Shown here piece after piece: positions 1 through 34,799 of a DNA stretch of 37,538 nt (position 1 is the stretch's first letter; every line of letters starts with the position of its first letter). The DNA is from Chrysophaeum taylorii (taxonomy: Eukaryota; Sar; Pelagophyceae; Pelagomonadales; Pelagomonadaceae): assembly GCA_029834535.1 (NCBI GenBank), contig JAQMWT010000637.1, positions 1 to 37,538 of the forward strand, in the 5' to 3' direction. Made by a program: the position numbers and the translations under genes. The notes under the pieces were generated by a model. The model was not told the origin of the DNA and did no database searches. It saw nothing but the letters and a program-made list of their open reading frames with translations.

Positions 1-2049
1 TCTGGGGGGGGGAGAATCCTACTGGTCCTCTACAGAGTTTATCACCCAGGTCTTACATACCGACCCTCTATCCATATCCAACTGAAATCTCTGCCCCTAC
101 TACTCCTACTGACGCTGTTTTCCGCTTATCCCGAAGTTGCGCACACTGCCCTCGCCATCGCCGCAACGTCGCTAAACTAGAATTCACCAGCCATTGTTGG
201 TCCTGACGAATGTAAGGTCCAAGAAGCGGACGTTTCCATTGACGAATATAAACTTAAGTGCCTCCCACGGTTTGTCGCCTGAAAACAGGCACGCCTACCT
301 CAAGGCCATCGCCAAGGAACTCAACGACATTATACGCTTCGGCTGCTTCAAACTTTCCTTACCCGACGGTGTCTCTCGTCCTATTGACAGCAAGATGGTC
401 CTGAAGATTAAAACAGACTCTGCAGGCAAATACGTTAAGCACAAGGCTCGCCTCGTCCTACGTGGCTTCGTAGCATCTCTTGGCGCCGATTTCTTTGGTA
501 CCTTCAGCCCCATGGCCACCATGACCGCAATCCGGGTACTACTAGCTATCGCAGCATACAAGCAAATGCCTGTCTACCATGCAGACGTCCCGAACGCCTT
601 CGTTCAGTCTGACATCGATGCCAATGTATATGTTCAGTTACCAGACGGCATCAGGCTTATCGACCCCGATGACGCTAAGTACAAGGGCCGACGTCTACCG
701 AAACTGCTGAAGTCACTTTATGAACTTGGGCAAACACCATCCCATTGGAACAAAGAGATAGACGGTTTCTTCCGTAGCCTTGGCTACAAACGCCTGCATT
801 CGGACTCTTGCCTATATGCTCGAGTATCCGCACATGCCAAGTTCGTCGTATGCAGTCTGTCTGTAGACGACATTGTTATTGTGTCCAATGACGACCCACT
901 TCGTACTGAATTACAGGATGCCCTCCGCAAACGGTATGCTGTAGAGCAGTTTGAACCTGTCCATACCCTCCTAGGCATGCGTGTGTGTCGCACATCTGAC
1001 GGCTCCATTTCTCTGGATGTGCAAGCCAAGCTGGATGAACTCTTCGCTGATCACCCTGTCTTGCAGCAACTGACCCCGCTTAAATATCCTATGTCATCGT
1101 CCTTCAAGTATAGAGATGGCACTCCCAGCACTGAAACAGAGTTGTACATCAATTCGCACTTTGCCACCCTCCTTGGCAAGCTGGTGTTCATGCAAGTTGC
1201 CTGCAGACCTGACTTCTCGCAAGCCTTGGGCAGATGTTCGCGTGGTATGCATGCACCCACATATGTTCACGTCCAAATGCTAGAGCATTTGCTTCGCTAC
1301 CTCAAGAAGCCGGAAAACCGCTCACTTCGCCTCTGGTTTCACCCTAAAGGTAATGCCATTGAAGCTCACCTTCGCACTGTCTCCGCTAATCGAATTGATC
1401 TATCCACTGTGGTCGACTACCAACCACAGGATGTATCTACTGGACAGTTTGACCCCTTAGTTGCATGGTTGACGCTGACAATGCCCGTTCCTTAGCACAG
1501 GAAGATAAGAAATCTACCACCGGGTTTGTCTTCTATCTTTTCAACTGCCTTATTGGTTGGAAAAGCAAACTTCAACCGATTGTCTCCTGCTCAACTCACG
1601 AAGCTGAGTTGATTGCCCTCAGTATTTGTGCTGATGAAGCTGTTTGGCTACGCAGGCTGTTGTTGGAACTCTCCTTTGTCGTCAACCCCACCTTCTACGT
1701 CAACAATGCTAATGGTGAGAACACCGCTGACCCTGTTGACTGCGATGACAATGACAACCCAATTGCTGAAGATATGCGCTTCATCAGAAGCCTACCTCTC
1801 TTGTCTGACAATGCTGCCGCTGTTCACACCTCTAATAACCCAGATGGGTCCTCTCGATCCAAGGCACTGTCGTCCAGATGGTTTAAGATTCGTGAGTACA
1901 TGTCGCTTCAGAAAATACGAGTCCATCATGTTCCCGGCAAGCTAAACGTGGCGGATGGTTTTACAAAGCCACTTGCTGCTGAGTTCTCCACCTTTCGCTC
2001 TCTACTCGGCATGCATCCTGCCTCTGACGACAATCCTTTACAGGACTGA
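1..2049 (+). pseudogene. Ty1/copia pol fragment (family A, copy 1): linker, reverse transcriptase, RNase H
   Basis: The window opens inside the integrase-RT linker of a copia polyprotein. The RT domain (about 230-1400) shows an HKARLVLRG block, the motif A region HADVPNAFVQ, and SVDD in place of the usual YVDD. RNase H follows at 1465-2049 with the acidic set seen in DAD, HEAEL and LSDN, and ends in a typical ADGFTKPLA tail. The RT frame stops at 1495, while RNase H lies in the frame starting at 1465, so a one-base shift separates the domains just before DAD. In the 'LYGLKQ'-type motif this copy reads LYELGQ, which looks degenerate. There is no genuine ATG for RT, because the integrase part lies outside the window. 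The RT-RH part is about 97-98% identical to 23656-25489. It would copy element RNA into cDNA inside virus-like particles, but the frameshift suggests it is dead. Confidence 0.93.
161..180 (+). repeat. 20-bp direct repeat upstream of RT-A (partner at 2069-2088)
   Basis: CCGCAACGTCGCTAAACTAG occurs here, and again with one change at 2069-2088, just past the RNase H stop. The second family A copy has the same pair at 23232-23250 and 25509-25528. The repeats bracket the RT-RNase H module. Confidence 0.7.
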
Positions 2050-2068
2050 AGATGCCTAACCCTAGTGA

Positions 2069-2088
2069 CCGCAACGTCGTTAAACTAG
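2069..2088 (+). repeat. 20-bp direct repeat downstream of RNase H-A
   Basis: Partner of 161-180, lying in the 106-bp spacer between the RNase H stop (2049) and the next ATG (2156). That spacer is too short for a normal LTR. Confidence 0.7.
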
Positions 2089-2155
2089 CAAACTAGCCCT
2101 CGCCCTATCTTCTTTTGCCACATTTTTTTTTGTACGTGTCGTGTGAGTGTCGCTC

Positions 2156-4141
2156 ATGTCTTTTTCTTGGCACTCCCGTGGCCGTGGCCGTGGCCGTGGC
2201 ATCTCTCCAGTCGTTCGAAGGACAATTCCACGTTCGCTTTTCACGGCCGAGCCTTCTCCCAAGTTGTTTCAAAAGCGACAACCCATAACCACAGTCACTC
2301 CTACTACCTCCCAGGCTGCTACTGTCTCACCGACACCAGCTGAACCTGTTATACTACAATCCCTAACACTCCAGGATGGCCTCAACATGGATTTTGCCCT
2401 GATTGAACGAGGATTCTCTCTTTCTGAGAGCTTCCGTACTCCTGCTACGCCCTTTCTCTCTTCTGCTAAGCGAGCGGAAATCTCTACGGCACTCAACTCG
2501 ATATATGAATATGCTGACTCTTTACTGTTTGTGGAACTAACGACATTCATATCCATGCGCCTACCCATTACTACATTTTGGTAAGCTGCTCCTGCTATTA
2601 CTTCTATTGGCTGCTACAGAGGCACCAAACGTGAACGTTTCATCCTGTCATCCTACTGTACGCAATGCCTCAACGATTTGGGGCAGACTACATTTCTTGC
2701 TTCCACCGCATATAATTCGAAGTCACAAGCACCTAGTGAACTCCCCACTGAAGTGCTGAGTCACCTCAACACAGATGACCACAAGAAGAATGGTCACATC
2801 CCCATCTCAACTATCACCACTAACATTTGTTGTGCTTGTCACAACACTGATCAGGCGCCCATACAACCTAACGTATGTGCACGTAATGCTACTTCCTTCC
2901 AACCCTCCTGTGATGGGTGCTCAGCTGGTCATATACGCGCAACCATCATACGCACGTATCATTTGCCAAAGGAGCTACATACTCTCTTGACTAGCAGTCT
3001 AACGCAACATTCGTCACTTGCTCATTTAGTCTTATCAGTAACCGATGCAGCCACAGACTCCACTACTCAATTACCATTGGCACTGGATCTTCGGCTTATT
3101 ACTCAGATGCACCTGGAGCATCTTAACTTTCTTGTAACGCTCGAGCGAACACAAGCTCGTAAAACTCAGGCTATGTTCAAGCCCACCAAATACCACCATG
3201 CGATTCATACTGTTATCCAATCGTGGGTACAACACCTTGACGACTACGTATCATCCTCAGACGATACAAAGCCGCCATCACTCTTGGATGTAATGTTCGG
3301 CCCCACCTATACTCCGGCCGAACGTCAAGACTTTCTGCACTTCCTAAACACGAAATACCCCCTACTTGCACAGCATATGTTGACCGAAACGTCATTTAAC
3401 TACTCACTTCCCTCATCAGAATCTACTCTGGAAATGTCTTCGCCATCGACACACCCTGCTCCTTCTGCCTCGCCTGATGATGTCGATGCATTGCGTCAAC
3501 AAGTCGAACAACTCCAGGAAACTCTTCGCCTATATATTCGCAAGGTCAACACCCTCAGCGCTGAGAATCTATCTCTGCGCACAGATCTACAGGCTGCCAT
3601 TACTTCAATTACCTCCCTGGAAAACCGGGTCTTCCCTCCTACAGCCAATGCACACGTGTTGCTTGTAACACTGTTCAAGATCACAGAGCTACTGTCTCGC
3701 TTAACGCCAACAGCTCATGACCAATATGCCGCCAACCATTCCTCCCCGGACGATCACCTCCATCGTCTGCGTGATAATTTGCTCTCGTGTATTCAAAGCA
3801 TTCCCTTCGCATGTGAATCGGAAGACCCTTCTATCCTCTCGGATCCGTTCGCTGAGTCCAACTTTTTGGAAAACCACCTGGACACCCTAAAACTTGACTC
3901 ACTAGTGCCATCCCTACTGAATGCTTTACTTGCACTCACGTTTCGTATGGTACCACACCATTCTGCTATTGGCATTCACCACCCGACAGCAGAAGCTGAC
4001 GAAGACGATACCGATACTCTCGAACCAGTAACGTCCACCACCTCAGATAGCTTTAACACACTGTCTGCCGTACCTGTGTTTCGTAATGCTCTGTTCAAAA
4101 GCGTCAAGTCGACTCTCAGCTCCACCAAGTCCAAGCCCTAA
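2156..4141 (+). pseudogene. Third ORF downstream of copia-A pol (structural/Gag- or env-position protein, function unknown)
   Basis: One frame of about 660 codons starts at ATG 2156 and is broken by a single TAA at 2582-2584. The degraded second copy has a glutamate codon at the equivalent place. The N-terminus carries an RGRGRGRG run. The middle has several CxxC pairs (CTQC, CCAC, CDGC) that could bind zinc. Around 3480-3640 there is a probable coiled coil (DALRQQVEQLQETLRLYI and following heptads), and the C-terminus is acidic and then Ser/Lys-rich. I do not recognise the family. Three related copies occur in this window (here, 4607-5577 and 25580-27130), so it is a retroelement protein. 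It lies 106 bp after RNase H in the same orientation and is followed by a purine tract. It could be Gag in an unusual position or an env-position accessory protein. Confidence 0.65.
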
Positions 4142-4540
4142 GACACCCTGCTATACTCTTGATGCTTTTTATGTGACCTCTGCGACCATCAAGACTGTAT
4201 TCTCCTTCCTTTCCTTTTTTTCTTCATCATCATCTTTCTCAAGAGATGCTCTACAGTCGCACCTTGCGCTTAAGACATCTCGAGGGGGTGCAGAGCAATC
4301 TGCTGCCTCTCACCCTTATCCGTCCGTTTAGAACGTGATCTCTTCCTTACCCTTCTTCTTCCTTTCTACACAATCTAATAGTCCTCTGATTTGTGCCTAC
4401 GCTCATCATCATGGTCTAGCGCGTCCCGAGGTATCTAGCACTGTACACTTTACCTTTCTCGTGTAGTTCTAGATGCCGCCTGTCGTGTTCTGAGGATATA
4501 GGGAACACACCTTTTCATTCCCCGAATTAACTACTTCCAG
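4142..4540 (+). other. Noncoding, pyrimidine-rich segment with possible polypurine tract and LTR start
   Basis: There is no convincing gene. GAGGGGG at 4282-4288 is followed directly by TG, which is the layout of a polypurine tract abutting a 3' LTR. The same GAGGGGG-TG arrangement occurs at 27260-27268, and GAGGGGG-TC at 5688-5696, each time about 110-140 bp after an ORF3-like sequence. The LTR ends could not be fixed. Confidence 0.4.
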
Positions 4541-4606
4541 ACGTTCACGATGAGGCGGGATGGTTTCCCAGGTGACTTACCACTGCTTGCTAAATGCTCT
4601 GCAGTT
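4541..4606 (+). pseudogene. Short copia-B-like pre-integrase fragment
   Basis: Nearly identical to 27528-27593 (a peptide like GDLPLLA). The match stops abruptly at about 4606, where sequence related to the ORF3 C-terminal half begins. This marks a recombination or insertion breakpoint. Confidence 0.6.
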
Positions 4607-8151: not shown

Positions 8152-8660
8152 ACATGCGAATGAAGGGTTTCTCGAGTGCGGGTTCTATGTACAGTACGAT
8201 ATTTTAAGCGTGAGCTTATTTACAAGACCAAACAAATCAGCATGCTATTTAAGAACAGGATGACTTGACTACTCTTTGTTGACTGAAGAATGGATTAGTT
8301 ATCGAGCAGTCAGTCATTTGTTGGGAAATGGAAGTAAAAAACCGTACAAGTTTCCGCGGTTTGTATAGGAAAATTTGTAATTTTATTAGTTGTGCGAGTG
8401 CATGTGACCAGTGACCGACCCAACTCGGTCACAAGCCAATTTAACTGGTGGGCACATACCGTCACACAACAAATATGTACAGTAGACCACCGCCAAACAC
8501 ATTGTCGGACGGTGGGCAATGGAGCAAGCACGGAGTGGATTTTAGAGCCAAGTTTGCGGTCACTTCCACGAAGATACCATATATAGCGACTATGGGACAA
8601 GTGGTGATCTTCCAAAGCGAAGTGAGAGTCCTTGCAGTCGAAAGAATTGTCGGTGGCCTT
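8152..8660. other. Intergenic region between methyltransferase-like ORF and gag-like gene; candidate LTR
   Basis: No gene is recognised. A perfect 8-bp-stem hairpin (GTGACCGA/TCGGTCAC) lies at 8411-8432. An AT-rich segment lies near 8330-8400. The position, after one ORF and before a gag-like start on the same strand, would suit an LTR shared by tandem elements, but no TG...CA pair could be verified. Confidence 0.3.
8411..8432. other. Perfect hairpin
   Basis: An 8-bp inverted repeat, GTGACCGA and TCGGTCAC, around a 6-nt loop. Confidence 0.6.
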
Positions 8661-10022
8661 TTAGGTAAGGCAGCCAGGCTTCACAAGAGAGCATCTGGAC
8701 AAGAGCTTTTGTATGGCGGTGCCATAGGGGGCAGCGGAGCCAACTTGAGGGAGGGCTTGGATGATCCACAAGAAACCCATAAACGGCTCCAAATATACAG
8801 ATCTGTCTCTGTCGCGGGGGACTTTGGAGGCAGTAAACGTATACATGCTTCCAAACGCGTCAATGGAAGCATGATATTTGGTGGCGGAGTTTTCTATGGT
8901 GAGGTTGCCGTCAGTGTGGTGGCCACCCGTTAAGAAGTAGGTGTTGTGTGATGTTGATGAGGTTGTAAGTAGTAGCCTATGTGACGGTTGGTCAGTTTCG
9001 AAAACGGTTATGTAATAGGACACAGGAGTGGGTGAGTTAGTGTGCAATCTGGCAAACGAGTTATATAATATGGCGAAGGCCTTGACACGCAATGGATTAG
9101 TTGCATGTGGCAGTGGTTCCATGGAGGAGCGTTTGAAACACAGCGGATGATAAGTACATTCGGATTGAACAGAGTGCGTGCGTTGCTCGTGAGCCTGTTG
9201 AGAGTGAAGGCGGATAAATAGTAAATTGAGTGTTTCGAGGTCAGTCATGGTAAGCTGAACAGAACCTGTGCGAGAGTAAGGTGCAAAAGTTTTAAGAACG
9301 GGGACATGTGGTGGATCGGGGAACACCCGGACCCAGTCTTTGGCGATATCTTTAGATAGCCAAAGTCGTTTAGGGAAGGCTTGTATGTCATCCACGATCT
9401 TAAAGAAGGGGCGTGGGTGGTGGATAGGCCATGGGAGTATGTCGATTGGCCCAGTAGAATACCTGCGTGCGAGGCATATCCATCTTCCCCTAGATTGGTA
9501 GTCGCCACATAGGTAGGTCGGGAACCTGTCAACAACATCAACACAGTAACCGAGTGTGGAATGGATGAGATTGGCCACAGTTATGTGGTCTTGATGACAG
9601 TACTTGTGGGGTGGTGTCATCTCAACCAGTAGTACCAAGGGTTGGAGAAGTTTGATGACAGATAGCATGCTGTCGAAGAGGGAGTCGTCGAGCAGACTGT
9701 GTAGATTCCTGTTAGTGCATGGATGAGTTATCTCTATAATATCACAATAAAATTTGCGCCTTTCCTCTGGTGAAATTTGATGAAGATGGTTAATAAAGGC
9801 GGGCAAAGATTCAAATAATAATACTGTAGGAAAAGGGTGGCGTAACATGCGCACAAGCGTATCATCAGACTCAACAACAATTTTTACATTGACATGTAAG
9901 CCTAGGTCATTAGTGGCTTGAGACAGGACGCTGGGGTTGACAAACCAGAACAAACAAACATTACAGAGGGTTTGCGAAGATTGGGCTCTTGTGAGAGAAA
10001 CACTGGACGAGAAAGCATTCAT
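8661..10022 (-). CDS. C5 cytosine-DNA methyltransferase-like protein of a retroelement
   Basis: An uninterrupted 453-codon ORF with an ATG start. Motifs appear in the order of C5 methyltransferases. A Pro-Cys in CDIIEITHPC (residues 93-102) fits catalytic motif IV. VEM at 133-135, after a helix ending QPLVLL, fits the ENV motif VI. QSRGR at 176-180 fits motif VIII. EPFMGF at 412-417 fits motif IX, and QVGSAAPYGTAI at 426-437 fits the GNAVP motif X. The 230 residues between VIII and IX would be the target-recognition region. The SAM-binding FxGxG loop (motif I) is not conserved (FWFVNPS at 25-31), and the ENV Asn is Met, so activity is doubtful. The ATG overlaps the stop of an upstream ORF as ATGA. 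If active, it would methylate cytosine in DNA, possibly that of the element itself. I am confident of the fold family and unsure of activity. Confidence 0.75.
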   Translation of the reverse strand: MNAFSSSVSLTRAQSSQTLCNVCLFWFVNPSVLSQATNDLGLHVNVKIVVESDDTLVRMLRHPFPTVLLFESLPAFINHLHQISPEERRKFYCDIIEITHPCTNRNLHSLLDDSLFDSMLSVIKLLQPLVLLVEMTPPHKYCHQDHITVANLIHSTLGYCVDVVDRFPTYLCGDYQSRGRWICLARRYSTGPIDILPWPIHHPRPFFKIVDDIQAFPKRLWLSKDIAKDWVRVFPDPPHVPVLKTFAPYSRTGSVQLTMTDLETLNLLFIRLHSQQAHEQRTHSVQSECTYHPLCFKRSSMEPLPHATNPLRVKAFAILYNSFARLHTNSPTPVSYYITVFETDQPSHRLLLTTSSTSHNTYFLTGGHHTDGNLTIENSATKYHASIDAFGSMYTFTASKVPRDRDRSVYLEPFMGFLWIIQALPQVGSAAPYGTAIQKLLSRCSLVKPGCLT

Positions 10023-10023
10023 G

Positions 10024-10271
10024 TTAATGGTGGAGTGTTTTGCTGAACAAATTTGTTCTGTTTCCGAAGATTAAGAACCAAAGGGCGGATCCACAGGCGA
10101 TCTGGTAAAACTCTCTTGAGGAGCTAGTTATAATATGCCAGTAGATCTATGTTTTCGTGGTATCGCTTGAGCGGAAATGCGAGGGAGCATAGTTCGAGTT
10201 GCTTGTCGCGGGCGATGTTGTAGGTGAAACAAGGGAGAGCAGGCAAGTTAGATGCTACGTAATGTATGTTA
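10024..10271 (-). pseudogene. C-terminal end of an upstream ORF, possibly a Ty3-type integrase tail
   Basis: On the minus strand, a frame runs from the Helitron-like junction at 10271 to a TGA that overlaps the methyltransferase ATG. It has one internal TAG near 10135. The peptide contains FTYN and, 14 residues later, AFPLKRY. This loosely matches the FAYN...SPFxLxYG segment near the end of Ty3/gypsy integrases. The match is weak. Strand and overlap indicate that it shared a transcript with the methyltransferase-like ORF. The N-terminal part is missing, having been replaced or displaced by the insert at 10272. Confidence 0.35.
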
Positions 10272-10279
10272 ACAAGTGC

Positions 10280-10625
10280 AGGCCAGTAAGTTCACCTAGC
10301 CCCAATCTCTAACCCCAGTAAGTTCACCTAATCCCAGTAAGTTTCATATAAGTTCACCTGGTCAGCAAGTTCATCTAGTCCAAATCTCTAACCCCTGTAA
10401 GTTCGGCGTAAACCCACTCGTGCTCACGCCCACTCCTTCGAGCTCGTCGCTCTCGCCTCCGCCAATCTTAGCAGCTTTGATCCGCACACGCCGCTAACCT
10501 TTGAGTTTACTCTAAAACCCCCAGTAAGTTCACCTGGTCCCAGTAAGTTCGCCTGGTCACTAAATTCACCTAGTCCCAATCTCAAACCCCAGTAAGTTCA
10601 CCTGGTCCCAGTAAGTTCACCTACA
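10280..10625. repeat. Array of ~10 short repeats, consensus CCCAGTAAGTTCACCTGGTC
   Basis: Degenerate units of about 19-20 bp (variants CACCTAG, CACCTGG) are irregularly spaced, some separated by unrelated sequence. Each unit has CCAG and CTGG at its ends, so it is a partial palindrome. Related arrays lie at 18783-19100 and 19790-19890. Confidence 0.8.
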
Positions 10626-10639
10626 GTGCGCGTGTAGAC

Positions 10640-11211
10640 GCCGGGAGGGGGCTTATCGGTATTGCGCAGCACGTGTGGGGTAGGGTGGAGTCGTCGACTG
10701 AGAAGTGCATATTCTCGGGGTTTCCGATCGACAGAGAGCCACGTAGAGCTGGACGTGACAGAAGACGGGCTTGGGCAAGAGGACGCCGACCTCGCGGGGC
10801 GTCTGGCCATAGCTCTTGTTGATCGTTTGGCGTCGGCGGGCCTTAAGGGATACAGGTTGGAGGAGCCTCGGTGACACGACACGATCGATCACGCATCTGG
10901 TACCGTTGCAGTGGCCGTGCGACGGGTCGAGGTTGCGAAGACTTTAAGCTCGCGATCAAAGTCAGCATGCCGTTGGTTGTCAGGGAGTCGAAAACTCGAC
11001 TGTAAAGAGCGAGGCGTCGTCTTGCGACCCAACCTAGTCGGCCGAAAAGAACTCCGACGCGTCGTCTCCGAGAAAAAAAGGCCGCGGTCATGCGCGCGTT
11101 GTCAGCATCGACAACATCGTTTCGACGGGGCGTGAGAATGTCGCGCCGAAAGAGCAGCCGGGGGTCGTGAAAATAGTCTGCGAAGTCGCCGTAGACGGCT
11201 TGGAGGATCAA
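10640..11211 (-). pseudogene. PIF1/Helitron helicase C-terminal fragment
   Basis: The reading order on the minus strand is a segment with DILTPRRNDVVDADNARM (near 11100-11150), matching the 'ILTPxNxDVDxIN' block of Helitron helicases, then, in other frames, TINKSYGQT and PVFCHVQLYVALCR (near 10720-10830), matching the 'TINKSQGQT...GQLYVALSR' end of PIF1-like helicases. The frames differ, so at least two frameshifts have accumulated. A functional protein would unwind DNA during rolling-circle transposition. Confidence 0.8.
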
Positions 11212-14022: not shown

Positions 14023-14918
14023 GAAGGTTGACCAGGATTTTTCATGCGTAATGGTCACGTCACGAGCTGTTTCGAATACTTCTTGTATCTTGATGCCCGC
14101 CGACGGGCCGCGGCGGTGCGCGCCTGTGTTACCAACGCAATGGATGTTGCGAACGGCCGCCGGGCCTGGTGCGTTGCTCGTGCCAGCAGATGTGTACTTC
14201 ATTTTGTGGCACATGGCGAGGCTCGACTACTCTTCGGGGCAATTGCGCCGCGCCGTGACAATAGACGCGGAGCCTCGGCCTGCCCCGGTGCCCCGCGGCC
14301 CTCGCCGGGACTCTGCTCGGTCCATCGCCTGAACCAGAAAGGTAGGTTCCTACCCCATCTTTCATATACTCTAAGTTGGGGCCGGGGCAGTGCTTCGGGG
14401 CACTGCTGGTCACCCCCGGCGCTTTTCGTCGGTGAACTTCCGCGTGAAGGCCCTTCTTCGGCTGAATGGCTAATTGGGGCCTCGCCGGAGGCAAGCAAAG
14501 GGGATCATGCATGCGAGTGAATGGGAGTACGCAAGTGTACTGAGGCAGGTGATGGCAGACATGCGGGGTTTTAGGATTGCCACATGCTCCAGAGGATTCT
14601 GAATTGCAGTGGGAAGAGAACGGAATAACTATCCCGCCTCGACGTGTGAATCTGGTAGGTTGGAATTCAGGGAACTGGTTAGTTCCCCTAGCTTAGGCAC
14701 ACGACAGACGACACGTTGAACTGCACCTGACTATAACATGTAAAACTTCGTGCCTTCGGGGCGCTCTAATCTATGAAGATGAGCGTGAGCAAGATCCATA
14801 GGTCGACTGCTAGGAGGTGTGCTCGAGGGGTTTTTTAAGGTCGACTGCAAAGAGGCGGGGGGTGCTTGTGGGTGCTTGAAGGTCAATCCAGGGGTTATTG
14901 ACAAGGGAAGAAGCAGGG
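14023..14918. other. No recognised gene; GC-rich part with several RNA-like hairpins
   Basis: Overlapping open frames on both strands (for example 14044-14520 plus and 14129-14512 minus) show no domain. Possible hairpins include GCAGTGC/GCACTGC around 14390, GGAACT/AGTTCC around 14670, and a UUCG-loop stem near 14750. At 14802 and 14840 two GTCGACTGC pieces match the ends of the 11262-13502 segment. Confidence 0.4.
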
Positions 14919-15149
14919 TTCACAGTGGGACGGGGTATGGCCGGGGGGCGAAGACGGAAGGTTATCGACGAGTTGGTTGTCAGTCACATCGCGGCCCCCT
15001 CGTCGCATGGCAACAAGCTTGATGGTCACTCTCCGCCGACCGACCTTTCGGCGCTCCTCGTCTACGGGCCCGTGATTCCGGACTGGCTCCTGTCGATCCG
15101 GCCTGGCTCCCATGCTCGTTAGAGGTCTGAAGTTAGTTAGTTAGTTAGA
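14919..15149 (+). repeat. Short retroposon copy S4, plus strand, 5'-truncated
   Basis: Matches the last ~215 bp of the full-length copies and ends in an AGTT tail at 15131-15149. A 13-bp flanking duplication with one mismatch (GAAGAAGCAGGGT left, GAAGAAGAAGGGT right) supports target-primed insertion. Confidence 0.8.
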
Positions 15150-17620: not shown

Positions 17621-18771
17621 CTAGTTGTGCGCATCGACGTGGTCGGTGACAAGCTTGACTGCCTGCGTTATCACGTTCATGCCTCGGCAAAACCCATGGG
17701 CGGTCCACTGGGCCTCGATCGGATTCGTCGTGTGCTGCTCCATCACGCGAGGATTTGCAGCCGGGAATTGTTCGGCGTCGGAGACTTTGGAAACCAATGC
17801 GCGCGGCTTTGGCGACGTGTTCTTCTTGGCTATTTGGAGCTGTTCCGGAGTTCGCGCGCTGGTGGCGGCGTTGTACTGGTCCGCGTTCCCCTTGGGGGCA
17901 CTATTCGACACTGTGATACAGCGATGCCTCGGGCATCCAAAGGGATTCGTTTGGTCGAGATTCGCGCGAATCGATGCGAGAGCGGAGGGAGATTCGTCCA
18001 CAACCAGTGTTCCGGCGTCGTTGTTGTACGCGTCGCTATGATACTTCTTCGCCGTTTTGGTAAGGGCATTCCATGTTTGCATGCTTTCGTTCATCCCAGC
18101 AAAGCCCACGAAGGCCACGGGCACGACCCGGTGGCTCGGATCCAGCTTGACAATCCCGCCCAAGCAACCCGCCTTGGTGTGGGTGAAATCACCGAAGCTC
18201 ACGTTCGAGCAATCCGGAAGGAGCTCGTATGCGAATTGGAAGCATACCGAGTAGCCGATGACGAATCGTATGTCCTCGCCCAGATCGTCATACATTTGGA
18301 GAGGAACAGTCGCAGGATCAAACTCGGCCTTCTCCTTGATCAGCTTCCCTTTCATCAGGCGCTCCTGTTCCCTCCCGAATTTGAGCTTCTCGGCCTCGAG
18401 ATGCATGGACTTCGCCTTCGCTGCGTTGACGCAGCTAAATTTGAGATGGATGCCAGCAGCAGCACATGCTTGCTCGATATGAGTTATGGCCTTAACATCA
18501 TCCTCTGGCTTCCCGTATATCACAGCCCGCGTGTGTTTCAGCAGCCGGTGCGCGAATTCGATGTCAACTTTCCAATGAACAAACTATTGTAAAATGGAAA
18601 CCAACCCGCTCCGCGTTGCTTTGCGTTCTTGCTTCTTCTTTTGGAGGTCGTGAAGCATGGCGGATAGAACAACTGGAAGCAGCTGCTGCGCGGTGTAGGC
18701 GTGCTGCTTTCGATGGTCGTTCGAAGGCCCGCCATTCCGCGGCTGGCGTGACGAGACAGTCATCGACCGTT
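17621..18771 (-). pseudogene. MULE transposase catalytic (DDE) domain
   Basis: On the minus strand, GDFTHTKAG holds the first Asp and is followed by the VVPVAFVGFAGMNESMQTW strand-helix typical of MULEs. VVDESPSALASI holds the second Asp, then CPRHRC gives the CxxH motif. Near the end, TTNPIEAQW matches the 'TTNxxES' block with the third acidic residue. A TAG-type stop near 18584 separates the upstream piece (18584-18771), which joins the insertion at 18772. The frame is shared with SWIM and OTU parts downstream. The enzyme would cut and join DNA at the element ends. Stops and insertions indicate that it is non-autonomous now. Confidence 0.88.
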
Positions 18772-18772
18772 G

Positions 18773-19778
18773 ACAAGTGCAGGCCAGTAAGTTCACCTAG
18801 TCCCAATCTCTAACCCCAGTAAGTTCACCTGGTTCCCAGTAAGTTTCATATAAGTTCACCTGGTCAGTAAGTTCACCTAGCTCACACCAACTCCTTTGAG
18901 CTCGTCGCTCTCGCCTCCGCCAATCTAAGCTGCTTCGATCCGCACGCGCCGCCTACCTTTGAGTGAGTTTACTCTAAAAACCCTTTGCTCTAAAACCCCA
19001 GTATGTTCACCTGGTCCCAGTAAGTTCACCTGGTCACTATATTCACCTATCCCAATCTCAAACCCCAGTTAGTTCACGTGGTCCCAGTAAGTTCACCTAC
19101 AGTGCGCGTGTAGACGCCGGGAGGGCTTATCGGTATTGCGCAGCACGTGTGAGGTAGGGTGGAGTCGTCGACTCAGAAGAGCATATTCTCGGGGTTGCCG
19201 ATCGACAGAGAGCCACGTAGAGCTGGACGTGACAGAAGACGGGCTTGTGGGCAAGAGGACGCCGACCTCGCGGGGCGTCTGGCCCTGGCTCTTGGTGATC
19301 GTTTGGCGTCGGCGGGCCTTACGGGATACAGGTTGGAGGAGCCTCGGTGACAACGACACGATCGATCATGTATCTGGTACCGTTGCAGTGGCCGTGCGAC
19401 GGGTCGAGGTTGCGAAGACTTTAAGCTCGCGATCAAAGTCAGCATGCCGTTGGTTGTCAGGGAGTTCAAAACTCGACTCTTGAGAGCGAGGCGTCGTCTT
19501 CCGACCCAACCAAGTCGGTCGAAAAGAACTCCGACGCCTCGTCTCCGGGAAAAAGGCCGCGGTCATGCGCGCGTTGTCAGCATCGACAACATCGTTTCGA
19601 CGGGGCGTGAGAATGGCGCGCTGAAAGAGCCGCCGCGGGTCGTGGAAATAGTCTGCGAGGTCGCCGTAGACGGCTTGGAGGATCAATGTGTGGCTCGCGG
19701 GCCCACATGACCCTTACCCTAAATCGAGGGACAAACAGAGAGACAAACAGACAGACAAACATCTGTCGATTAGTAGTT
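18773..19778 (-). mobile_element. Helitron-like unit B (first of a tandem pair)
   Basis: From ACAAGTGCAGG to ATCTGTCGATTAGTAGTT. It carries the short-repeat array (about 18783-19100), a decayed minus-strand helicase C-terminus (19093-19686: ILTPRRNDVVDADN, then TITKSQGQT), and a GACA/CAAACAGA microsatellite (about 19728-19762). It lies head-to-tail with unit C, and the pair splits the MULE coding region between its DNA-binding and catalytic domains. Confidence 0.75.
19093..19686 (-). pseudogene. PIF1/Helitron helicase C-terminal fragment (unit B)
   Basis: Same content as the fragment at 10640-11211 but in better condition for TITKSQGQTPREVG. LTPRRNDVVDADNARM is at about 19590-19640. The frames are broken between the two blocks. 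No upstream helicase motifs (Walker A/B) are present, so it is non-autonomous. Confidence 0.8.
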
Positions 19779-20568
19779 ACAAGTGCAGGCCAGTAAGTTC
19801 ACCTAGTCCCAATCTCTAACCCCAGTAAGTTCACCTGGTTCCCAGTAAGTTTCATATAAGTTCACCTGGTCAGTAAGTTCACCTAGCTCACACCAACTCC
19901 TTTGAGCTCGTCGCTCTCGCCTCCGCCAATCTAAGCTGCTTCGATCCGCACGCGCCGCCTACCTTTGAGTGAGTTTACTCTAAAACCCTTTGCTCTAAAA
20001 CGGGGGCAAGAGGACGCCGACCTCGCGGGGCGTCTGGCCCTGGCTCTTGGTGATCGTTTGGCGTCGGCGGGCCTTACGGGATACAGGTTGGAGGAGCCTC
20101 GGTGACAACGACACGATCGATCATGTATCTGGTACCGTTGCAGTGGCCGTGCGACGGGTCGAGGTTGCGAAGACTTTAAGCTCGCGATCAAAGTCAGCAT
20201 GCCGTTGGTTGTCAGGGAGTTCAAAACTCGACTGTAAAGAGCGAGGCGTCGGCTTCCGACCCAACCTAGTCGGCCGAAAAGAACTCCGACGCCTCGTCTT
20301 CGGGAAAAAGGCCGCGGTCATGCGCGCGTTGTCAGCATCGACAACATCGTTTCGACGGGGCGTGAGAATGGCGCGCTGAAAGAGCCGCCGCGGGTCGTGG
20401 AAATAGTCTGCGAGGTCGCCGTAGACGGCTTGGAGGATCACTGTCTGGCTCTCGCTTCTACCTGATCCTTACTCTCGCGCCAACCTGATCCTTACCCTAA
20501 ATCGAGGGACAAACAGACAGACATACAAACAAACAGACAGACAGATAAACATCTGTCGATTAGTAGTT
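19779..20568 (-). mobile_element. Helitron-like unit C (second of the tandem pair)
   Basis: Same ends as unit B but with an internal deletion of about 230 bp. The sequence jumps at about 19999 from the AT-rich part of the array to GGGGCAAGAGGACGCC. It ends in the same (GACA)n-type microsatellite (about 20509-20552) and ATCTGTCGATTAGTAGTT. The helicase remnant is at 20000-20441 on the minus strand. Confidence 0.75.
20000..20441 (-). pseudogene. PIF1/Helitron helicase fragment (unit C)
   Basis: Contains ILTPRRNDVVDADNARM at about 20350. The downstream QLYVALSR-type end is lost with the deletion. About 95% identical to the unit B fragment over the shared part. Confidence 0.75.
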
Positions 20569-21297: not shown

Positions 21298-21414
21298 CTC
21301 ACATCACTTGTACCGTTTTTCTAATATGGGTCATATCACTCGTTACTATACACCGTTCGGGACACATCACTGGTACCTGTGAGCCCGCGAGACGCGGAAC
21401 GAGTGATGTGTCCC
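21298..21414. repeat. Right-end repeats and hairpin of the MULE region
   Basis: Copies of the CACATCACT motif lie at about 21298, 21329 and 21359. GGGACACATCACT (21359-21371) and AGTGATGTGTCCC (21402-21414) form a perfect 13-bp inverted repeat. Copia-A integrase sequence resumes immediately at about 21416, so this is a clean element end. Confidence 0.7.
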
Positions 21415-21415
21415 G

Positions 21416-22249
21416 TATCGCGACTTATGCACCGACTGCATCGCACACAACAAGCGCCACCCGCACAAGCATTTCAATGCGACCAAACCTTCCTTTGAGC
21501 AAACCCACAAAGCCGGTGAAGTCTGGGCGTGCGACGGCGGCTATGTGACCATCCCATCCGAATGGGGAGGCTTCACACATATCATTGTCTTCAAGGAACT
21601 CATGTCGAAATTTCTCTTGGTATACTTTACACGCACCACCAACGCCACGGAGTTCACTCAGGCTCTGGATTTTGTGTATGACTTCTGTCGTACACAACTC
21701 AACGTGCACATGCGCACCCTCTACTCCGATGCATTCAAGCCCTACTTAAGCCAGCACATTACCTCCCCGTACCGCGTCGATAAGGGCATTCAACTCATTG
21801 CCTTCCCGCCGTACATGCACCACTTTAACCTTGAAGTTGAGTCTGCCATCGGCTTCATCGCCTCCGCCTCCTCAACTCGCCTTCGTTCTCTCCTTAGTGC
21901 TCACTATCGTGGCGCCAAGATCGTGGAACCCGCTATCATGTTCCCATGGGCGGTGATACACACCGTTCAAAGCTATAACCTTCTCCCGAACGCCACGCTC
22001 GAGCGCATTCATCATGCTATTCTGAGTCCGCAACAGCTACTCTACAACCAACTCAGCACTCCCCAACACGATATGCTCAATATTTTTGGCGCTGAATGTT
22101 ACCTCCTATTGGAGCCCCATGAACACCACAAGTGGGAACCGTGCCGCTGCAAATATCTGTATCTCTGTTGCGCCAACGCGCAAAACCCGCTCGTCTCCCC
22201 ACGCGTCGACCATCTCGCTGACGTCGTCCTCAACCCTGAAAACGGATAA
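21416..22249 (+). pseudogene. Copia-A integrase (copy 2), 5'-truncated
   Basis: Coding sequence resumes right after the MULE end with the later half of the zinc-binding region (CTDCIAHNKRHPH). The catalytic core follows: Asp in WACDGG (~21533), Asp in LYSDAF (~21728), and Glu in NLEVE (~21833), which is 35 residues after the second Asp and so a DD35E spacing. The usual Leu/Phe surroundings and a C-terminal part to 22249 are present. The protein would integrate element cDNA. Gag, protease and the first zinc ligands are missing on this side, and the left MULE flank at 13750 does not contain them. Confidence 0.88.
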
Positions 22250-23285
22250 ATTCGTATTTCGTCCAAGCTGCAATTCCTCTACATGTTGCAGCATCCTACT
22301 CCTGATCCTGAACTAGCTCCCCCGCCTCACGCTCCTTCCGCGCCTTTCTCGCTCACACCCCACACCACTATCCAAGACCATGTTATTCAGAGGGGGACAA
22401 GGACTCCTCATCCTCAGAGGGGGCACTCCCCGCCTCCTTCAGCTCCGCCTTCGTCCCCTACTCCGGCCTCTTCTCCCTCTTCTGACGCTCTCGCCGACGA
22501 ATCTGGCTCTATGTCACCGCCGCCCTTGCTTCCTTCTTACAAAGACCTTTTTGCACAAGATGACCTCATTCTTGTCCCAGGTTCCAAACAGCCTAACACT
22601 CGCAAGGCCACTTACTTTTATGAAAACTATCCGAGCCCGGTTACAGGCGTCTACTATTGGTGCTTACAAAGCCGCTGGTGGCAAGCTCGCCGATTTCCGC
22701 TGGGATCTTCGCCACCACTTTATTACGTTCAAGTCTCCCGCCCTCTCCGCCCTTCATCTCAATGGTGGTATCCTCTGGTCTGGTATCTGCTCAGAGGGGA
22801 AACATGCGTTGTTAGCTCGTCTTCTTCTCCCGTTGCGCACTGACTTACTTGCCCGCTACCCATCGCCCACGCCAAGTGCGCATCCAGCATCCCAGCTGTA
22901 ACCTTTTTAACTGCGGATGGTTCACCTACGTGCCCTATTCCTCAGCCCCTTTTATCTGCTTTCACTGAACACGCTGCTGCCTTCGGCACTTCTTCCTTCC
23001 AATATGCACTTACGTACCTGGCACCGACCAGCTTTGTTGATCACAACTCATCCGAGTTTGGCGCTACATCTGCATATCTGGCTGACTTGGAGGAATACCT
23101 TCTGGTCTCTACAGAGTTTATCACCCAGGTCTTACGTACCGACCCTACTATCCATATCCAACTGAAATCTGCCCCTACTACTCCTACTGACGCTGTTTCC
23201 ACTTATCCCGAAGTTGCGCACATTACCTCGACCGCAACGTCGCTAAACTATAATTCACCAGCCACTGTTGGTCCTGACGAATATA
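22250..23285 (+). pseudogene. Copia-A integrase-RT linker
   Basis: A long Pro/Ser-rich, low-complexity stretch (about 22283-22500) is followed by fragments spread over several frames, ending in an ITSTATSLNYN-type segment just before the retroposon insertion. Frameshifts near 22250 and 22900 break continuity with the integrase and RT. The last ~190 bp match 1-193 of this window. Confidence 0.7.
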
Positions 23286-23646
23286 ACTAACTAACTTCAG
23301 ACCTCTCCCGAGCATGGGAGCCAGGCCGGACCGACAGGAGCCAGTCCGGAATCACGGGCCTGTCGACGAGGGGCGCCGAAAGGTGGGTCGGCGGAGAGTG
23401 ATCATCAAGCTTGTCGCCATGCGACGAGGAGACCGCGATGTGACTGACAACCAACTCGTCGATAACCTTCCGTCTGCGCCCCCCGGCCATACCCCGTCCC
23501 AGTGCGAACGTTCCGGCTGCCAACCGGCCCGCCCGAGAGGCGAATAGGTGCCAACCTACGCCGGGAGGGCGGATGCCCTCGCAAGGCTCAGGATTCATGA
23601 GGCACCGTCCTCCATCGCATCGCAACCATGCGGTCGGCGATCAGGG
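23286..23646 (-). repeat. Short retroposon copy S1, full length, with target-site duplication
   Basis: 361 bp, minus-strand orientation, inserted between integrase linker and RT of copia-A copy 2. ACGAATATA at 23277-23285 is repeated at 23647-23655. The empty site is visible in copia-A copy 1 (around 215-224, ACGAATGTA). The tail is ACTAACTAAC on the plus strand and the 5' end is the same as copy S3. Confidence 0.92.
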
Positions 23647-25489
23647 ACGAATATAAGGTCCAAGAAGCGGACGTTTCCATTGACGAATATAAACTTAAGT
23701 GCCCCCACGGTTTGTCGCCTGAAAACAGGCACGCCTACCTCAAGGCCATCGCCAGGGAACTCCACGACATTATACGCTTTGGCTGCTTCAAACTTTCCTT
23801 ACCCGACGGTTTCTCTCGTCCTATTGACAGCAAGATGGTGCTGAAGATTAAAACATACTCTGCAGGCAAATACGTTAAGCACAAGGCTCGCCTCGTACTA
23901 CGTGGCTTCCTAGCATCGCTTGGCGCCGATTTCTTTGGTACCTTCAGCCCCATGGCCACCATGACCGCAATCCGGGTACTACTAGCTATCGCAGCATACA
24001 AGCAATTGCCTGTCTACCATGCAGACGTCCCGAACGCCTTCGTTCAGTCTGACATCGATGCCAATGTCTATGTTCAATTACCAGACGGCATCAAGCTTAT
24101 CGACCCCGATGACACTAAGTACAAGGGCCGACGTCTACCGAAACTGCTGAAGTCACCTTATGGACTTAGGCAATCACCATCCCTTTGGAACAAAGAGATA
24201 GACGGCTTCTTCCGTAGCCTTGGCTACAAACGCCTGCATTCGGACTCTTGCCTGTATGCTCGAGTATCCGCACATGCTAAGTTCGTCGTATGCAGTCTGT
24301 CTGTAGACGACATTGTTATTGTGTCCAATGACGACCCACTTCGTACTGAATTACAGGATGCCCTCCGCAAACGGTATGCTGTAGAGCAGTTTGAACCTGT
24401 CCATACCCTCCTAGGCATGCGTGTGTGTCGCACATCTGACGGCTCCATTTCTCTGGATGTGCAAGCCAAGCTGGATGAACTCTTCGCTGATCACCCTGTC
24501 TTGCAGCAACTGACCCCGCTTAAATATCCTATGTCATCGTCCTTCAAGTATAGAGATGGCACTCCCAGCACTGAAACAGAGTTGTACATCAATTCGCACT
24601 TTGCCACCCTCCTTGGCAAGCTGGTGTTCATGCAAGTTGCCTGCAGACCTGACTTCTCGCATGCCTTGGGCAGATGTTCGCGTGGTATGCATGCACCCAC
24701 ATATGTTCACGTTCAAATGCTAGAGCATTTGCCTCGCTACCTCAAGAAGCCGGAAAACCGCTCACTTCGCCTCTGGTTTCACCCTAAAGGTAATGCCATT
24801 GAAGCTCACCTTCGCACTGTCTCCGCTAATCGAATTGATCTATCCACTGTGGTCGACTACCAACCACAGGATGTATCTACTGGACAGTTTGACCCCTTAG
24901 TTGCATGGTTGACGCTGACAATGCCCCTTCCTTAGCACAGGAAGATAAGAAATCTACCACCGGGTTTGTCTTCTATCTTTTCAACTGCCTTATTGGTTGG
25001 AAAAGCAAACTTCAACCGATTGTCTCCTGCTCAACTCACGAAGCTGAGTTGATTGCCCTCAGTATTTGTGCTGATGAAGCTGTTTGGCTACGCAAGCTGT
25101 TGTTGGAACTCTCCTTTGTCGTCAACCCCACCTTCTACGTCAACAATGCTAATGGTGAGAACACCGCGGACCCTGTTGACTTCGATGACAATGACAACCC
25201 AATTGCTGAAGATATGCGCTTCATCAGAAGCCTACCTCTCTTGTCTGACGATGCTGCCACTGTTCACACCTCTAATAACCTAGATGGGTCCTCTCGATCC
25301 AAGGCACTGTCGTCCAGATAGTTTAAGATTCGTGAGTACATATCGCTTCAGAAAATACGAGTCGATCATGTTCCCGGCAAGCTAAACGTGGCGGATGGTT
25401 TTACAAAGCCACTTGCTGCTGAGTTCTCCACTTTTCGTTCTCTACTCGGCATGCATCATGCTTCTGACGACAAGCCTTTACAGGATTGA
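23647..25489 (+). pseudogene. Copia-A reverse transcriptase and RNase H (copy 2)
   Basis: The RT has HKARLVLRG, HADVPNAFVQ, PYGLRQSPSLW and SVDD. The RNase H has DAD, HEAEL and LSDD. The same one-base shift seen in copy 1 separates the domains (RT frame ends 24935, RNase H frame from 24905). In addition a TGG-to-TAG change at 25319-25321 truncates RNase H. The open frame reaches back into the retroposon to an ATG at 23628, which is accidental. Better preserved than copy 1 in the YGL motif. The 3' end of RNase H is at 25489, again followed by a short spacer and ORF3 sequence. Confidence 0.92.
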
Positions 25490-25579
25490 AGATGCCTAGC
25501 CCTAGTGACCGCAACGTCGTTAAACTAGCCCTGGCCTTACCTTCTCTTGCCACAATTTTTTGTACACGGGCGAGTGTTG

Positions 25580-27130
25580 TTCATGTCTATTCTTGACACT
25601 CCCGTGGCCGCGGCATCTCACTAGTCGCGTGAAGGACAGTCCCTTCTCGCTCTCCACGGCCGATCCTTCTCCCAAGTTGTATCAAAAGCGACAACCCATA
25701 ACCACTGTCACTCCTACTACCTCCCAGGCTGCTACTGTCTCACCGACACCAGCTGAACCTGTTTTACTACAATCCCTAACACTCCAGGATGGCCTCAACA
25801 TGGATTTTGCCTTGATTGAACGAGGATACTCTCTCTCTGAGAGCTTCCGTACTCCCTGTCACCCCATTTCTCTCTTCTTTTATGCGAGTGGAACTCACAC
25901 TGACCTATGAGTCTACTGACTTTTCATTGTTTGTAGACCTGACCACATTCATGTGCATGCGCTTACCCATTACTATACATTGGGAAGCTGCTCCTGCTAT
26001 TGCTTCTATTGGCTGCTACAGATGCCCCAAACGCGAACGTTTCATTCTGTCGCTTTCCTTTTTTTACGCAGTGCCTCAATGATCGTGGACAACCGACATT
26101 CCTAGTCTCAACCACGTGCAGTTCCAAGGCACAAACACCTCGTGAACTCCCCACTGAAGTGCCGAGTCACCTCAACACGGACGACCATAAGAAGAATGGT
26201 CACATCCCCATTATCACAACACCGATCAGTTTACTTGTGACTCGTGTTCGAACACAGAGTCGCACAGCTGAGGCTATACAAGCCATCCATTCAGCATTTG
26301 ATTACTACTGCTGCTCGATCGCGTGTACAACATCTTAACAACTACGCATCATCCTCTGATGATACGGAATCGCTATCACTCCGGGATGTAATGTTCGGCC
26401 ACACTTATGTTCAGGCAGATTCTTAAGGCTTCCTGCACCCCTTTTTTAACGTTGACCGAAACGTCGTTAAAATACTCACACTCCACGCTAGACGCTACTC
26501 TGGAGATATCTTCGCCATCGTTACCTACGTCTTCTGCTTCGCTTGCTGATTTCGACGTCTTGTGCCAACAATTCGACCAACTCCAGGAAAGTCTTCGAAT
26601 CTATATTACCGAGGCTGCCATTGCTTCACTCACCTCCCTGGAGAACCGGCTCTTCCCTCCTACAGCCAACACCCACGTGTTACTTATACACTGTACAAGA
26701 TCATAGAGCTGTTGTCTCGCTTAACACTCACCGGTTATGACCAACATGCTACCAACTACTCCTCCCCGGACGATCACCTCCTTCAACTACGTGACAAGTT
26801 GCTCTCATGCTTCAGAGCATTCCGCCCGCTCTCATGTGAATCTGAAGACTCCTCTACCTTCGTTCGCCAAGTCCAGCCTTTTTGGAAATCCAACTGGACA
26901 CCTTTCAACTAGATTCTCTGTCGCCATCCATACTGAATGCTCTACTTGCACTCACCCTTCTCTTGGCACCACATCATTCAACTATTGGTGTTCACCACCT
27001 TACAGCAGAAGCGGACAATCCTAACACACTGTTTGTTGTATGTGTGTTTCTTAATGTTCTGTCAAAAAAAAAAAAAAAAAAAAGGGTCAAATCGACTCTC
27101 AGCTCCACCAAGTCCAAGTCCAAGTCCTAA
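25580..27130 (+). pseudogene. ORF3 of copia-A, degraded copy 2
   Basis: Roughly 80-85% identical to 2156-4141, but with deletions and many frameshifts (fragments at 25560-25910, 25816-26082, 26000-26338, 26407-26706 and 26562-26912). An A-run of about 19 at 27064-27083 replaces a short A-rich site of copy 1. It retains Glu where copy 1 has the stop at 2582. Confidence 0.75.
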
Positions 27131-27527
27131 GACCCTTCTATACTCTTGATGCTTCGTATGTGACCTCTGTGACCATCAAGACTGTATTTCCTCCTTTTTC
27201 TTCATCATCATCTTTCTCAAGAGATGCTCTACAGTCGCACCTTGCGCTTAAGACATCTCGAGGGGGTGCAGAGAAATCTGCTGCCTCTTACCCTTATCCG
27301 TCCGTTGACAGCGTGATCTCTTCCTTACCCTTCTTCCTCCTTTCTACACAATCAAATAGTCCCCTGATTTGTGTCTACGCTCATCATCGTGGTCTAGTGC
27401 GTCCCGAGGTATCTAGCACTATACACTTTACCTTTCTCGTGTAGTTCTAGATGCCGCCTGTCGTGTTCTGAGGATATAGGGAACATACCTTTCCATCCCC
27501 CGAATTAAATACTTCCAGACGTTCACG
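27131..27527 (+). other. Noncoding spacer with purine tract, homologous to 4142-4540
   Basis: GAGGGGG-TG occurs at 27260-27268. It is about 90% identical to the first copy. No gene is seen; it is a possible LTR segment. Confidence 0.5.
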
Positions 27528-27890
27528 ATGAGACGGGATGCTTTCCCAGGTGACTTACCACTGCTTGCTAATGCTCTGCAAAGCCATAAAGCAGTTCAGG
27601 TTATTGCCAGTCCTGGACACCACCCATCTGACGTACCCTACCGTAAGTTCTGTGTGGATTGTACGTTTCATAAAAAACGCTTTCCTCATCCACACCACCT
27701 TATTAAGCAACCATCATTCGAATAAAATTTTCAACCTGGTGAAGCCCGGGCATGTGACGGTGGTTGCGTCTCTGTGATCTCGGAATGGGGTTCCTTTCGA
27801 CATATCATTGTTTTCAATTGTCTCATTTCTAAATTTCTGTTAGCCGACCACGCAAAGTCGACCAAAGCGCATTACAAAAACCAACGAACT
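27528..27890 (+). pseudogene. Copia-B integrase fragment
   Basis: A zinc-binding remnant (CVDCTFHKKRFPHPHH) is followed by a stop at 27723 and the start of the core (ACDGGCVSVISEWG with the first catalytic Asp). The second Asp and the Glu are missing: after about 27890 the sequence is an unrelated low-complexity repeat. About 55% similar to the copia-A integrase, so it is a different family. Confidence 0.75.
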
Positions 27891-27909: not shown

Positions 27910-28170
27910 ACAACGCAATGTCGATTCTGTTTCATCCTGTCACAATGTCGATTCTGTTTCCTCTGTCGTTTCTGTTTCCTCCTGTCACTCTGTGTATGTC
28001 TCTTATTCTTATGTCTTCCTTCCCCTTTGTTTAGCTAACGCCCTTGTTGATCCCCATGCACATGTTTATTACTCTGCTTCCGAAGAAACCTCTCAGTATT
28101 CATACATGGGCGACCTCTCATGTTTATTAGCTTCCGAAGAAATCTCGTATTCGTACATGGGCGAGTCAAC
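27910..28170 (+). repeat. Two short tandem duplications before RT-B
   Basis: An AATGTCGATTCTGTTTC unit is repeated at 27916-27990, with a degraded third copy. A unit encoding SEEIS/SYMG is repeated at about 28076-28162. These replace most of the integrase. Confidence 0.6.
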
Positions 28171-30071: not shown

Positions 30072-30230
30072 TATAGGGTTAGGGTTAGGGATTAGGGTTT
30101 AGGGAGTTAGGGGTAAAGGGTAAAGGGTAAAGGGTTAAAGGTTAGGTGGTTAGGACGTTAGGTGGTTAGGACGTTAGGTTGTTAGGACGTTAGGTGGTTA
30201 GGACGTTAGGTGGTTAGGACGTTAGGTCGT
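30072..30230 (+). repeat. Telomere-like TTAGGG repeats grading into a GTTAGGTGGTTAGGAC array
   Basis: It begins with (GGGTTA) units, passes through GGGTAAA and GGGTTAAA variants, and ends in about five 16-bp GTTAGGTGGTTAGGAC units. The inverse copy lies at about 37285-37430 with more degenerate units. Confidence 0.85.
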
Positions 30231-30422: not shown

Positions 30423-30462
30423 GCCGCGGGCACTCGCACACACCAGGACCGGCATTCCTGTC

Positions 30463-34790: not shown

Positions 34791-34799
34791 GCTCTGCCC

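Follow-up and report, generated by a model that had tools for sequence, protein, structure and literature searches.

The open frame and the fragment that holds it

The window, namely the whole stretch of 37,538 nucleotides of the Chrysophaeum taylorii contig JAQMWT010000637.1 that was analysed, carries on its minus strand an uninterrupted frame of 453 codons opening with ATG, whose product is called P0001 (Table 1). The frame is present just as the initial annotation described it, and so are the motif words PC, VEM, QSRGR, EPFMGF and QVGSAAPYGTAI in that order; while the words stand, the assignment of the last two to motifs IX and X is not supported, since the profile and fold matches to known C5 methyltransferases (MTases) span roughly motifs I to VIII only and no alignment to a known MTase supports the other two. 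In fact the frame belongs to a longer fragment of a Copia-type element, here family 1, which contains the end of ORF1, the ORF1/ORF2 junction and the MTase domain, and in which blastn against the longer relatives L015 and L014 revealed neither integrase nor reverse transcriptase (RT). The fragment is 91.9% identical to L015 (5824-4033, 1792 columns) and 84-87% identical to L014 in two pieces. Comparison with the relatives also shows that an indel directly after motif I shifts about 30 N-terminal codons of P0001, and that P0001 is without 9 residues found in the relatives immediately past the catalytic-Cys loop. The frame is thus not intact as had been claimed, and its openness is not unusual either, as in 34 of the 69 copies examined a single reading piece without stops covers nearly the whole domain.

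Two further fragments are nearly identical to this one, L039 at 97.2% across 2019 bp and L069 in two parts, 98.2% across 1464 bp and 98.1% across 322 bp. In both, the similarity runs on past 10268, where the element ends on the right, and into the repeat that flanks it. They look like duplicated genomic segments, not separate transpositions. Judged against its relatives, the open frame is best read as a decayed remnant of a high-copy Ty1/copia element and not as an intact gene, and the window copy is very probably inactive.

Table 1. Features of family 1 in the window (positions and strand) and along the ORF2 frame of the copy L009 (residues)
Feature	Location	Strand	Evidence or remark
Copia RT of another family-1 copy	194..1495	+	RVT_2, E=1e-40
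3' LTR, 315 bp, of the copy with the RT at 194-1495	4289..4603	+	CTCGAGGGGG ahead of it
Family-1 Copia fragment (1.76 kb)	8505..10268	-	blastn vs L015, L014
P0001, divergent C5-MTase-like domain	8661..10022	-	open frame and genomic matches
QSRGR, residues 176-180, motif VIII	9483..9497	-	QxRER in most relatives
VEM, residues 133-135, ENV counterpart in motif VI	9618..9626	-
Pro-Cys of motif IV, residues 101-102	9717..9722	-	HPC; PPC in most relatives
About the first 30 codons, outside the family frame	9930..10022	-	motif I lost in the window copy
Further family-1 copy, integrase end plus RT part	21413..25103	+
SH3_retrovirus of the copy at 21413-25103	within 21545-22249	+	below cut-off
RVT_2 of the copy at 21413-25103	23628-24935	+	E=1.7e-40
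3' LTR, 314 bp, of the copy at 21413-25103	27267..27580	+	CTCGAGGGGG ahead of it
L009 MTase domain	residues 1-461		87.9% identical to L015
L009 rve	residues 784-866		under its own cut-off
L009 SH3_retrovirus	residues 968-1007		under its own cut-off
L009 RVT_2	residues 1431-1651		E=7.7e-42, far over cut-off

Elsewhere in the window, a long GC-rich palindrome takes up much of 30459-37047; its inverted arms reach 535 nt and agree at 96-100%, with one piece at 89%, and telomere-like repeats of GTTAGG types are seen at its edges (30074-30230 and 37283-37413). An ORF of 1285 codons in this region has no Pfam match. The palindrome may be genuine, an inverted repeat close to the end of a chromosome, or else a fold-back made in assembly.

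Copies of the family and their Copia architecture

A search through the genome (70.8 Mb in 697 contigs) gave at least 95 matches to P0001 (93 of 1492 candidates scored), and 69 copies were read, namely 68 fetched loci and the window copy. In L009, an uninterrupted ORF2 frame of 1691 codons spans the MTase domain, the integrase and a Copia-type RT; in L010 one open frame likewise runs from the MTase to the integrase. Taken together, the relatives have the layout LTR, primer site, ORF1, in-frame TGA, and ORF2 with MTase, integrase and RT, so that the MTase is the first domain of ORF2. This recurrent order refutes for this genome the very improbable reading that a host MTase gene merely had retroelement pieces fall into or beside it; the frame in the window has indeed no RT within it, and the outside relative P0002 is annotated in its source, the MMETSP transcriptome set, as a complete ORF standing by itself, but the order recurs in many copies, the frames of L009 and L010 are open across the domains, and the host-like MTase genes of this genome (L077, which is DNMT2-like, and L078) are separate.

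A practically negligible chance is left for an accidental open frame with motif-like words. Open frames are common on both strands of the window and P0001 itself has no Pfam match, and yet the many genomic matches, the outside homologues found with a P0001 relative (E=1.7e-75 and 8.1e-49) and a dN/dS of about 0.2 refute it. Among the matches listed, P0002 and P0003 are the only relatives outside this genome (about 5.8 billion proteins; 7997 candidates scored in a second search), and a pattern scan of genome-contig and viral-contig collections gave no relative.

The boundary of ORF1 and ORF2 is a TGA in 47 of the 50 copies containing the junction, and in 38 of the 50 the frame ahead of it is open for 100 codons or more. 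The TGA is followed by CTA in 29/50 and by ATG in 12/50 copies, so the commonest context is TGA-CTA, which is a leaky-stop context. Moreover, ATG is the codon directly ahead of motif I in 57/60 copies readable there (a pooled count), and the residue is Met in 49/52 single pieces. With such a junction and such a conserved ATG, both read-through and restart are possible ways for ORF2 to be expressed. As for ORF1 of family 1, Pfam gave nothing significant, and the end of ORF1 in L014 carries DSCA, which resembles a retropepsin site; ORF1 probably encodes Gag and protease.

The LTR of family 1 has 314-315 bp with TGCAGAG...CTCTGCA ends, the end reading CTCAGCA in L014. By exact ends it was found in three of the eight long loci (L009, L013 and L014) and as two 3' LTRs in the window; each locus read shows at most one of the two LTRs of a copy. 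Directly behind the LTR in L009, L013 and L014 is the primer site GGTTATGGGCCCAG, and ahead of both window 3' LTRs is the polypurine tract CTCGAGGGGG. A terminal-looking repeat of 1 kb in L014 was considered as LTR and rejected, as it starts inside the element, behind a short inserted repeat. The primer site has 14 nt complementary to nucleotides 26-39 of the host tRNA-Met(CAT), whose genes of 72 nt lie in L089 and L090 (two of the five fetched sites were called as tRNA), and a half-tRNA(Met) fragment is therefore the predicted primer of family 1.

Elements of Ty1/copia, such as Drosophila copia and yeast Ty5, have an RT of RVT_2 type, an integrase upstream in the same frame and TG...CA LTRs, and both copia and Ty5 are primed by an internal stretch of the initiator tRNA. 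Family 1 is alike in these respects, its priming being predicted from the primer site, while it differs in the extra MTase ahead of the integrase and in the in-frame TGA between ORF1 and ORF2. Since the single frame of L009 with RVT_2 comes together with TG...CA LTRs, the polypurine tract and the tRNA-Met primer site, it is nearly certain that family 1 is a Ty1/copia LTR retrotransposon. The claim that the open frame is embedded in a retroelement is accordingly borne out as to the family, which is Copia, but where family-1 RT occurs in the window, it comes from other copies, on the plus strand.

Between RT and 3' LTR of those two copies, 2.3-2.8 kb (1465-4288 and 24935-27266) contain further ORFs, so the element may have one ORF more; one of them, with 487 codons at 2678-4141, has sub-threshold coiled-coil matches only. 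A repeat of about 360 bp lies within a family-1 copy at 23276-23655, flanked by two GACGAATATAA direct repeats, and pieces related to it are found at 8103, 12553 and 15563 and, inverted, at 14918-15148. Repeats based on AAGTTCACCT occur at 10268-10650, 18770-19125 and 19775-19990, and sequence of this type adjoins family-1 fragments at 10268 in the window and at 9325 in L015, as if it were another mobile repeat inserted beside them. Besides, an ORF at 27992-29539 has a further RVT_2 match (E=1e-37) and no nucleotide match to L009, L015 or L087 of family 2 (see below); it apparently belongs to another Copia family.

Nature and constraint of the captured domain

The initial annotation named a profile search and a fold search with P0001 as checks, and neither gave an MTase: there is no match in Pfam, NCBIfam or PHROGs, nothing relevant among PDB sequences by phmmer, and no relevant Foldseek match for a structure model that is poor (pLDDT 34.9). 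A C5-MTase-like domain in a retroelement is thus upheld through the relatives and not through P0001 itself. In fact P0003 reaches 23.0 bits against PF00145, over the cut-off of 22 (E=6.1e-5), and P0002 stays just under it with 20.2 bits (E=4.4e-4). PHROG DNA methyltransferases are matched at 3e-8 and 4.6e-7. Among the Foldseek matches listed for the P0002 model, 45 of 50 are C5-MTases (best E=2.2e-5), M.HaeIII, M.HhaI and DNMT1 being included in the fold matches, for a model of low confidence (pLDDT 40.7). With VIA-align, other SAM enzymes came level with C5-MTases for this model and some rows were headed by a non-C5 chain, which means that C5 specificity cannot be read from the fold by itself. 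As regards direct comparisons, the ORF2 of L009 gave nothing relevant against PDB by phmmer, the sole PDB match of the family-1 profile is a cytosine MTase at E=0.53, and the profiles of the two host MTases align only weakly with it (E=0.067 and 0.0073).

A clearer related MTase is found in a second Copia family of the genome, family 2, where PF00145 and RVT_2 lie within one frame of 1952 codons and the order is protease-like motif (DGGAS), MTase, integrase. Five loci scanned with hmmscan score 32.1-46.3 bits against PF00145, and the family keeps ENV, with E-N in 8/8 aligned rows; no outside relatives of the family-2 piece were found at E<=0.001 among 7995 candidates scored. The profiles of families 1 and 2 align by hhalign at E=2.3e-6 with the motifs in register (in a control run 2.5e-6, against 0.0019 for the best of 30 shuffles). 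Given P0003 over the cut-off, the PHROG matches, the fold of P0002 and the alignment to family 2, we consider it very likely that the family-1 domain belongs to the MTase superfamily. Compared with the C5-MTases of PF00145, it has motifs I, II, IV, VI and VIII in the same succession and with the key residues, and likewise a predicted alternating strand-helix core, and it is unlike them in reading LCSGLS at motif I and AEM in place of ENV, single proteins of this genome falling below Pfam detection. With regard to the host gene L078 (G000:C621), its ORF at 1006-3537 matches PF00145 at E=7.9e-18 over 844 residues in a whole frame of 2086 codons, and its motif I reads CSG, not FxGxG; beside L077 there is a match to chlorophyll a/b-binding protein (E=1.2e-13), which marks the host as a photosynthetic eukaryote, tentatively a heterokont alga.

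The residues of catalysis are nearly invariant among the copies. The catalytic Cys of motif IV is present in 67/67 readable copies and the Pro before it in 66/67; in motif VI, which reads AEM or VEM, Glu is kept in 68/69 and aligns to the Glu of the family-2 ENV, while Met replaces Asn in 69/69; and in QxRxR of motif VIII, Q and the first R are kept in 66/68 each and the second R in 69/69. Motif I of family 1 reads LLCSGLS, so the lack of FxGxG that had been pointed out holds for the relatives too, whereas in P0001 it is partly an effect of the frameshift.

Selection was measured on the 34 near-complete, stop-free, single-piece copies of the 69, using pairs with dS above 0.05. Over all residues the pairwise dN/dS has a median of 0.222, with 0.176 in the core (residues 18-265) and 0.252 in residues 266-461. 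In the eight long copies it is 0.155 for the MTase core (28 pairs), 0.229 for the integrase (28) and 0.193 for the RT (15), residues 1051-1400 of ORF2 being looser with 0.521. A maximum-likelihood codon model on 41 copies gave an omega of 0.33 (fast search at kappa 1, with pooled rows among the copies), and the MTase stretch of family 2 has a dN/dS of 0.143 in nine loci (pooled pieces). The family-1 MTase domain is thus under purifying selection, its core as constrained as RT and integrase. Searching other contigs and computing dN/dS, as the initial annotation had proposed, therefore bore fruit in many copies and in purifying selection (about 0.16-0.18 for the core). The low dN/dS together with the near-invariant catalytic residues means that the domain matters to the element.

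It could matter as a non-catalytic part of the particle, kept for nucleic-acid binding or for structure, a reading which AEM for ENV, LCSGLS for FxGxG and the failure of single family-1 proteins of this genome to match any family would suit. We regard this as rather unlikely, since what is held are residues of catalysis and not only of the fold, namely Cys, Glu and QxRxR at the frequencies above, since P0002 and P0003 retain the catalytic residues as well, and since family 2 retains ENV. Of the earlier idea that the domain is a divergent or catalytically altered branch, the divergence is confirmed; an alteration does not follow, with Cys, Glu and both Arg nearly invariant, though AEM and the missing FxGxG may mean that activity is altered.

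Possible role and relation to known captures

The explanation that we favour as a whole, on balance and with only moderate confidence, is that of a decayed fragment of a Copia family whose pol carries a C5-MTase proposed to methylate cDNA. Here the ORF1 product would be Gag and protease, ORF2 would be made by occasional read-through of the TGA or by restart at the conserved ATG, and the element protease would free the MTase, which would remain with RT and integrase inside the virus-like particle and add 5-methylcytosine to the element cDNA ahead of integration; such methylation might hide the element where the host watches for unmethylated DNA, or might determine its chromatin state. Release by the protease, packaging and access to cDNA are suggested by the position of the MTase between protease and integrase in both families, where the protease is placed by its motif only, which is DSCA in family 1, at the end of ORF1, and DGGAS in family 2. 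The step of cDNA methylation is carried over from what de Mendoza et al. proposed for SymbioDIRS, according to the parts of PMC5890265 drawn on here, and active methylation of its own cDNA by the MTase has, in our judgement, slightly less than an even chance.

The copies themselves have no excess of CpG transitions, the third positions giving 0.068 (CG), 0.065 (CHG) and 0.058 (CHH) per site and copy. CpG observed/expected has a median of 0.78 in the copies, a mild depletion compared with two other parts of the window, which have 1.12-1.18, and this is at most weak support for methylation. A side question was whether decay of CGA to TGA stands behind the TGA-rich copies, and this was rejected, as transitions at CpG are not in excess and many different codons gave rise to the stops; the TGA-rich rows probably arose from including the frame-shifted N-terminus of P0001, because their P0001 matches begin at residue 1 to 5.

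The lack of a CpG transition excess would also suit an enzyme of C5-MTase fold acting on RNA, be it the primer tRNA or the element RNA inside the particle, and thus aiding packaging or priming. A tRNA-Met fragment pairs with the primer site, so that a tRNA would be at hand, and for SymbioLINE-Dnmt the portions of de Mendoza et al. (PMC5890265) drawn on here raise RNA methylation and report no DNA methylation in yeast. We consider this unlikely all the same, since no sequence feature points to RNA in particular, the DNMT2-like L077 is matched only weakly by profile (E=0.067), and the placement beside integrase and RT suits DNA equally.

Returning to the MTase in Copia pol, the captures reported in the parts of PMC5890265 drawn on here are in LINE and DIRS elements of Symbiodinium and in a Gypsy element of Klebsormidium, and the Copia elements of Symbiodinium are described there as abundant yet without any DNMT domain. 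The likeness to known captures that had been pointed out is thus right in kind, but the element superfamily here is another one, Copia. The closest case is KnitGypsy-Dnmt3 of Klebsormidium nitens, which also has a C5-MTase in an LTR-type Pol polyprotein under purifying selection (Ka/Ks <0.2 in de Mendoza et al. 2018, PMC5890265); unlike family 1 it is a Gypsy with DIRS-like repeat structure, it has fewer copies in K. nitens than are found here, and its domain clusters with Dnmt3, where family 1 was compared with two host MTases only (its features as given in the same parts of PMC5890265). SymbioDIRS-Dnmt3 and SymbioLINE-Dnmt of Symbiodinium are alike in having many intronless MTase copies inside retrotransposons, SymbioDIRS-Dnmt3 has DNMT and RT in one ORF as family 1 does, and SymbioLINE-Dnmt is an orphan MTase lineage; these are tyrosine-recombinase DIRS or LINE elements, unlike family 1 (likewise from these parts of PMC5890265).

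In the literature covered, i.e. the matches listed exclusive of subscription papers, preprints and Repbase, no C5-MTase in Copia pol was found, nor is there a Copia element with C5-MTase in the portions of PMC9998398, PMC6338049 and PMC3145265 drawn on. One passage of PMC12344493 (2025) mentions in passing DNMT3s in 'LTR Copia and DIRS' elements, citing de Mendoza et al.; as the cited work reports Gypsy (PMC5890265, in the parts used), we read 'LTR Copia' there as a slip, though we cannot exclude a new observation. Copia stands here as a further element class beside the few retrotransposons with captured MTase. Tentatively, and with appreciable doubt, we suggest that a single capture of a C5-MTase by a Ty1/copia element before families 1 and 2 split made it a permanent enzyme of pol, under the same constraint as RT and integrase, which lies behind a conserved in-frame stop, would ride in the particle and modify cDNA or primer RNA, and in family 1 has drifted (AEM, LCSGLS) out of reach of standard annotation.

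It is a puzzle why elements should carry an enzyme of the type by which hosts silence them, and few retrotransposon lineages have captured a cytosine MTase. Two diverged Copia families whose MTase is constrained like RT and integrase suggest that it is part of the element life cycle and no passing insertion. Surveys based on Pfam can miss such domains, so captures are perhaps undercounted, and Copia elements with MTase may be present yet unannotated in other protists, P0002 being from MMETSP. The small genome here suits a long-read methylation test of the question. Another algal mobile element with a methyltransferase is Sola1-1 of Ectocarpus, whose protein is given as ParB/DNA methyltransferase in the part of PMC12477816 drawn on; unlike family 1, it is a DNA transposon, and its enzyme is predicted there to be of N4-cytosine/N6-adenine type, not a C5-MTase.
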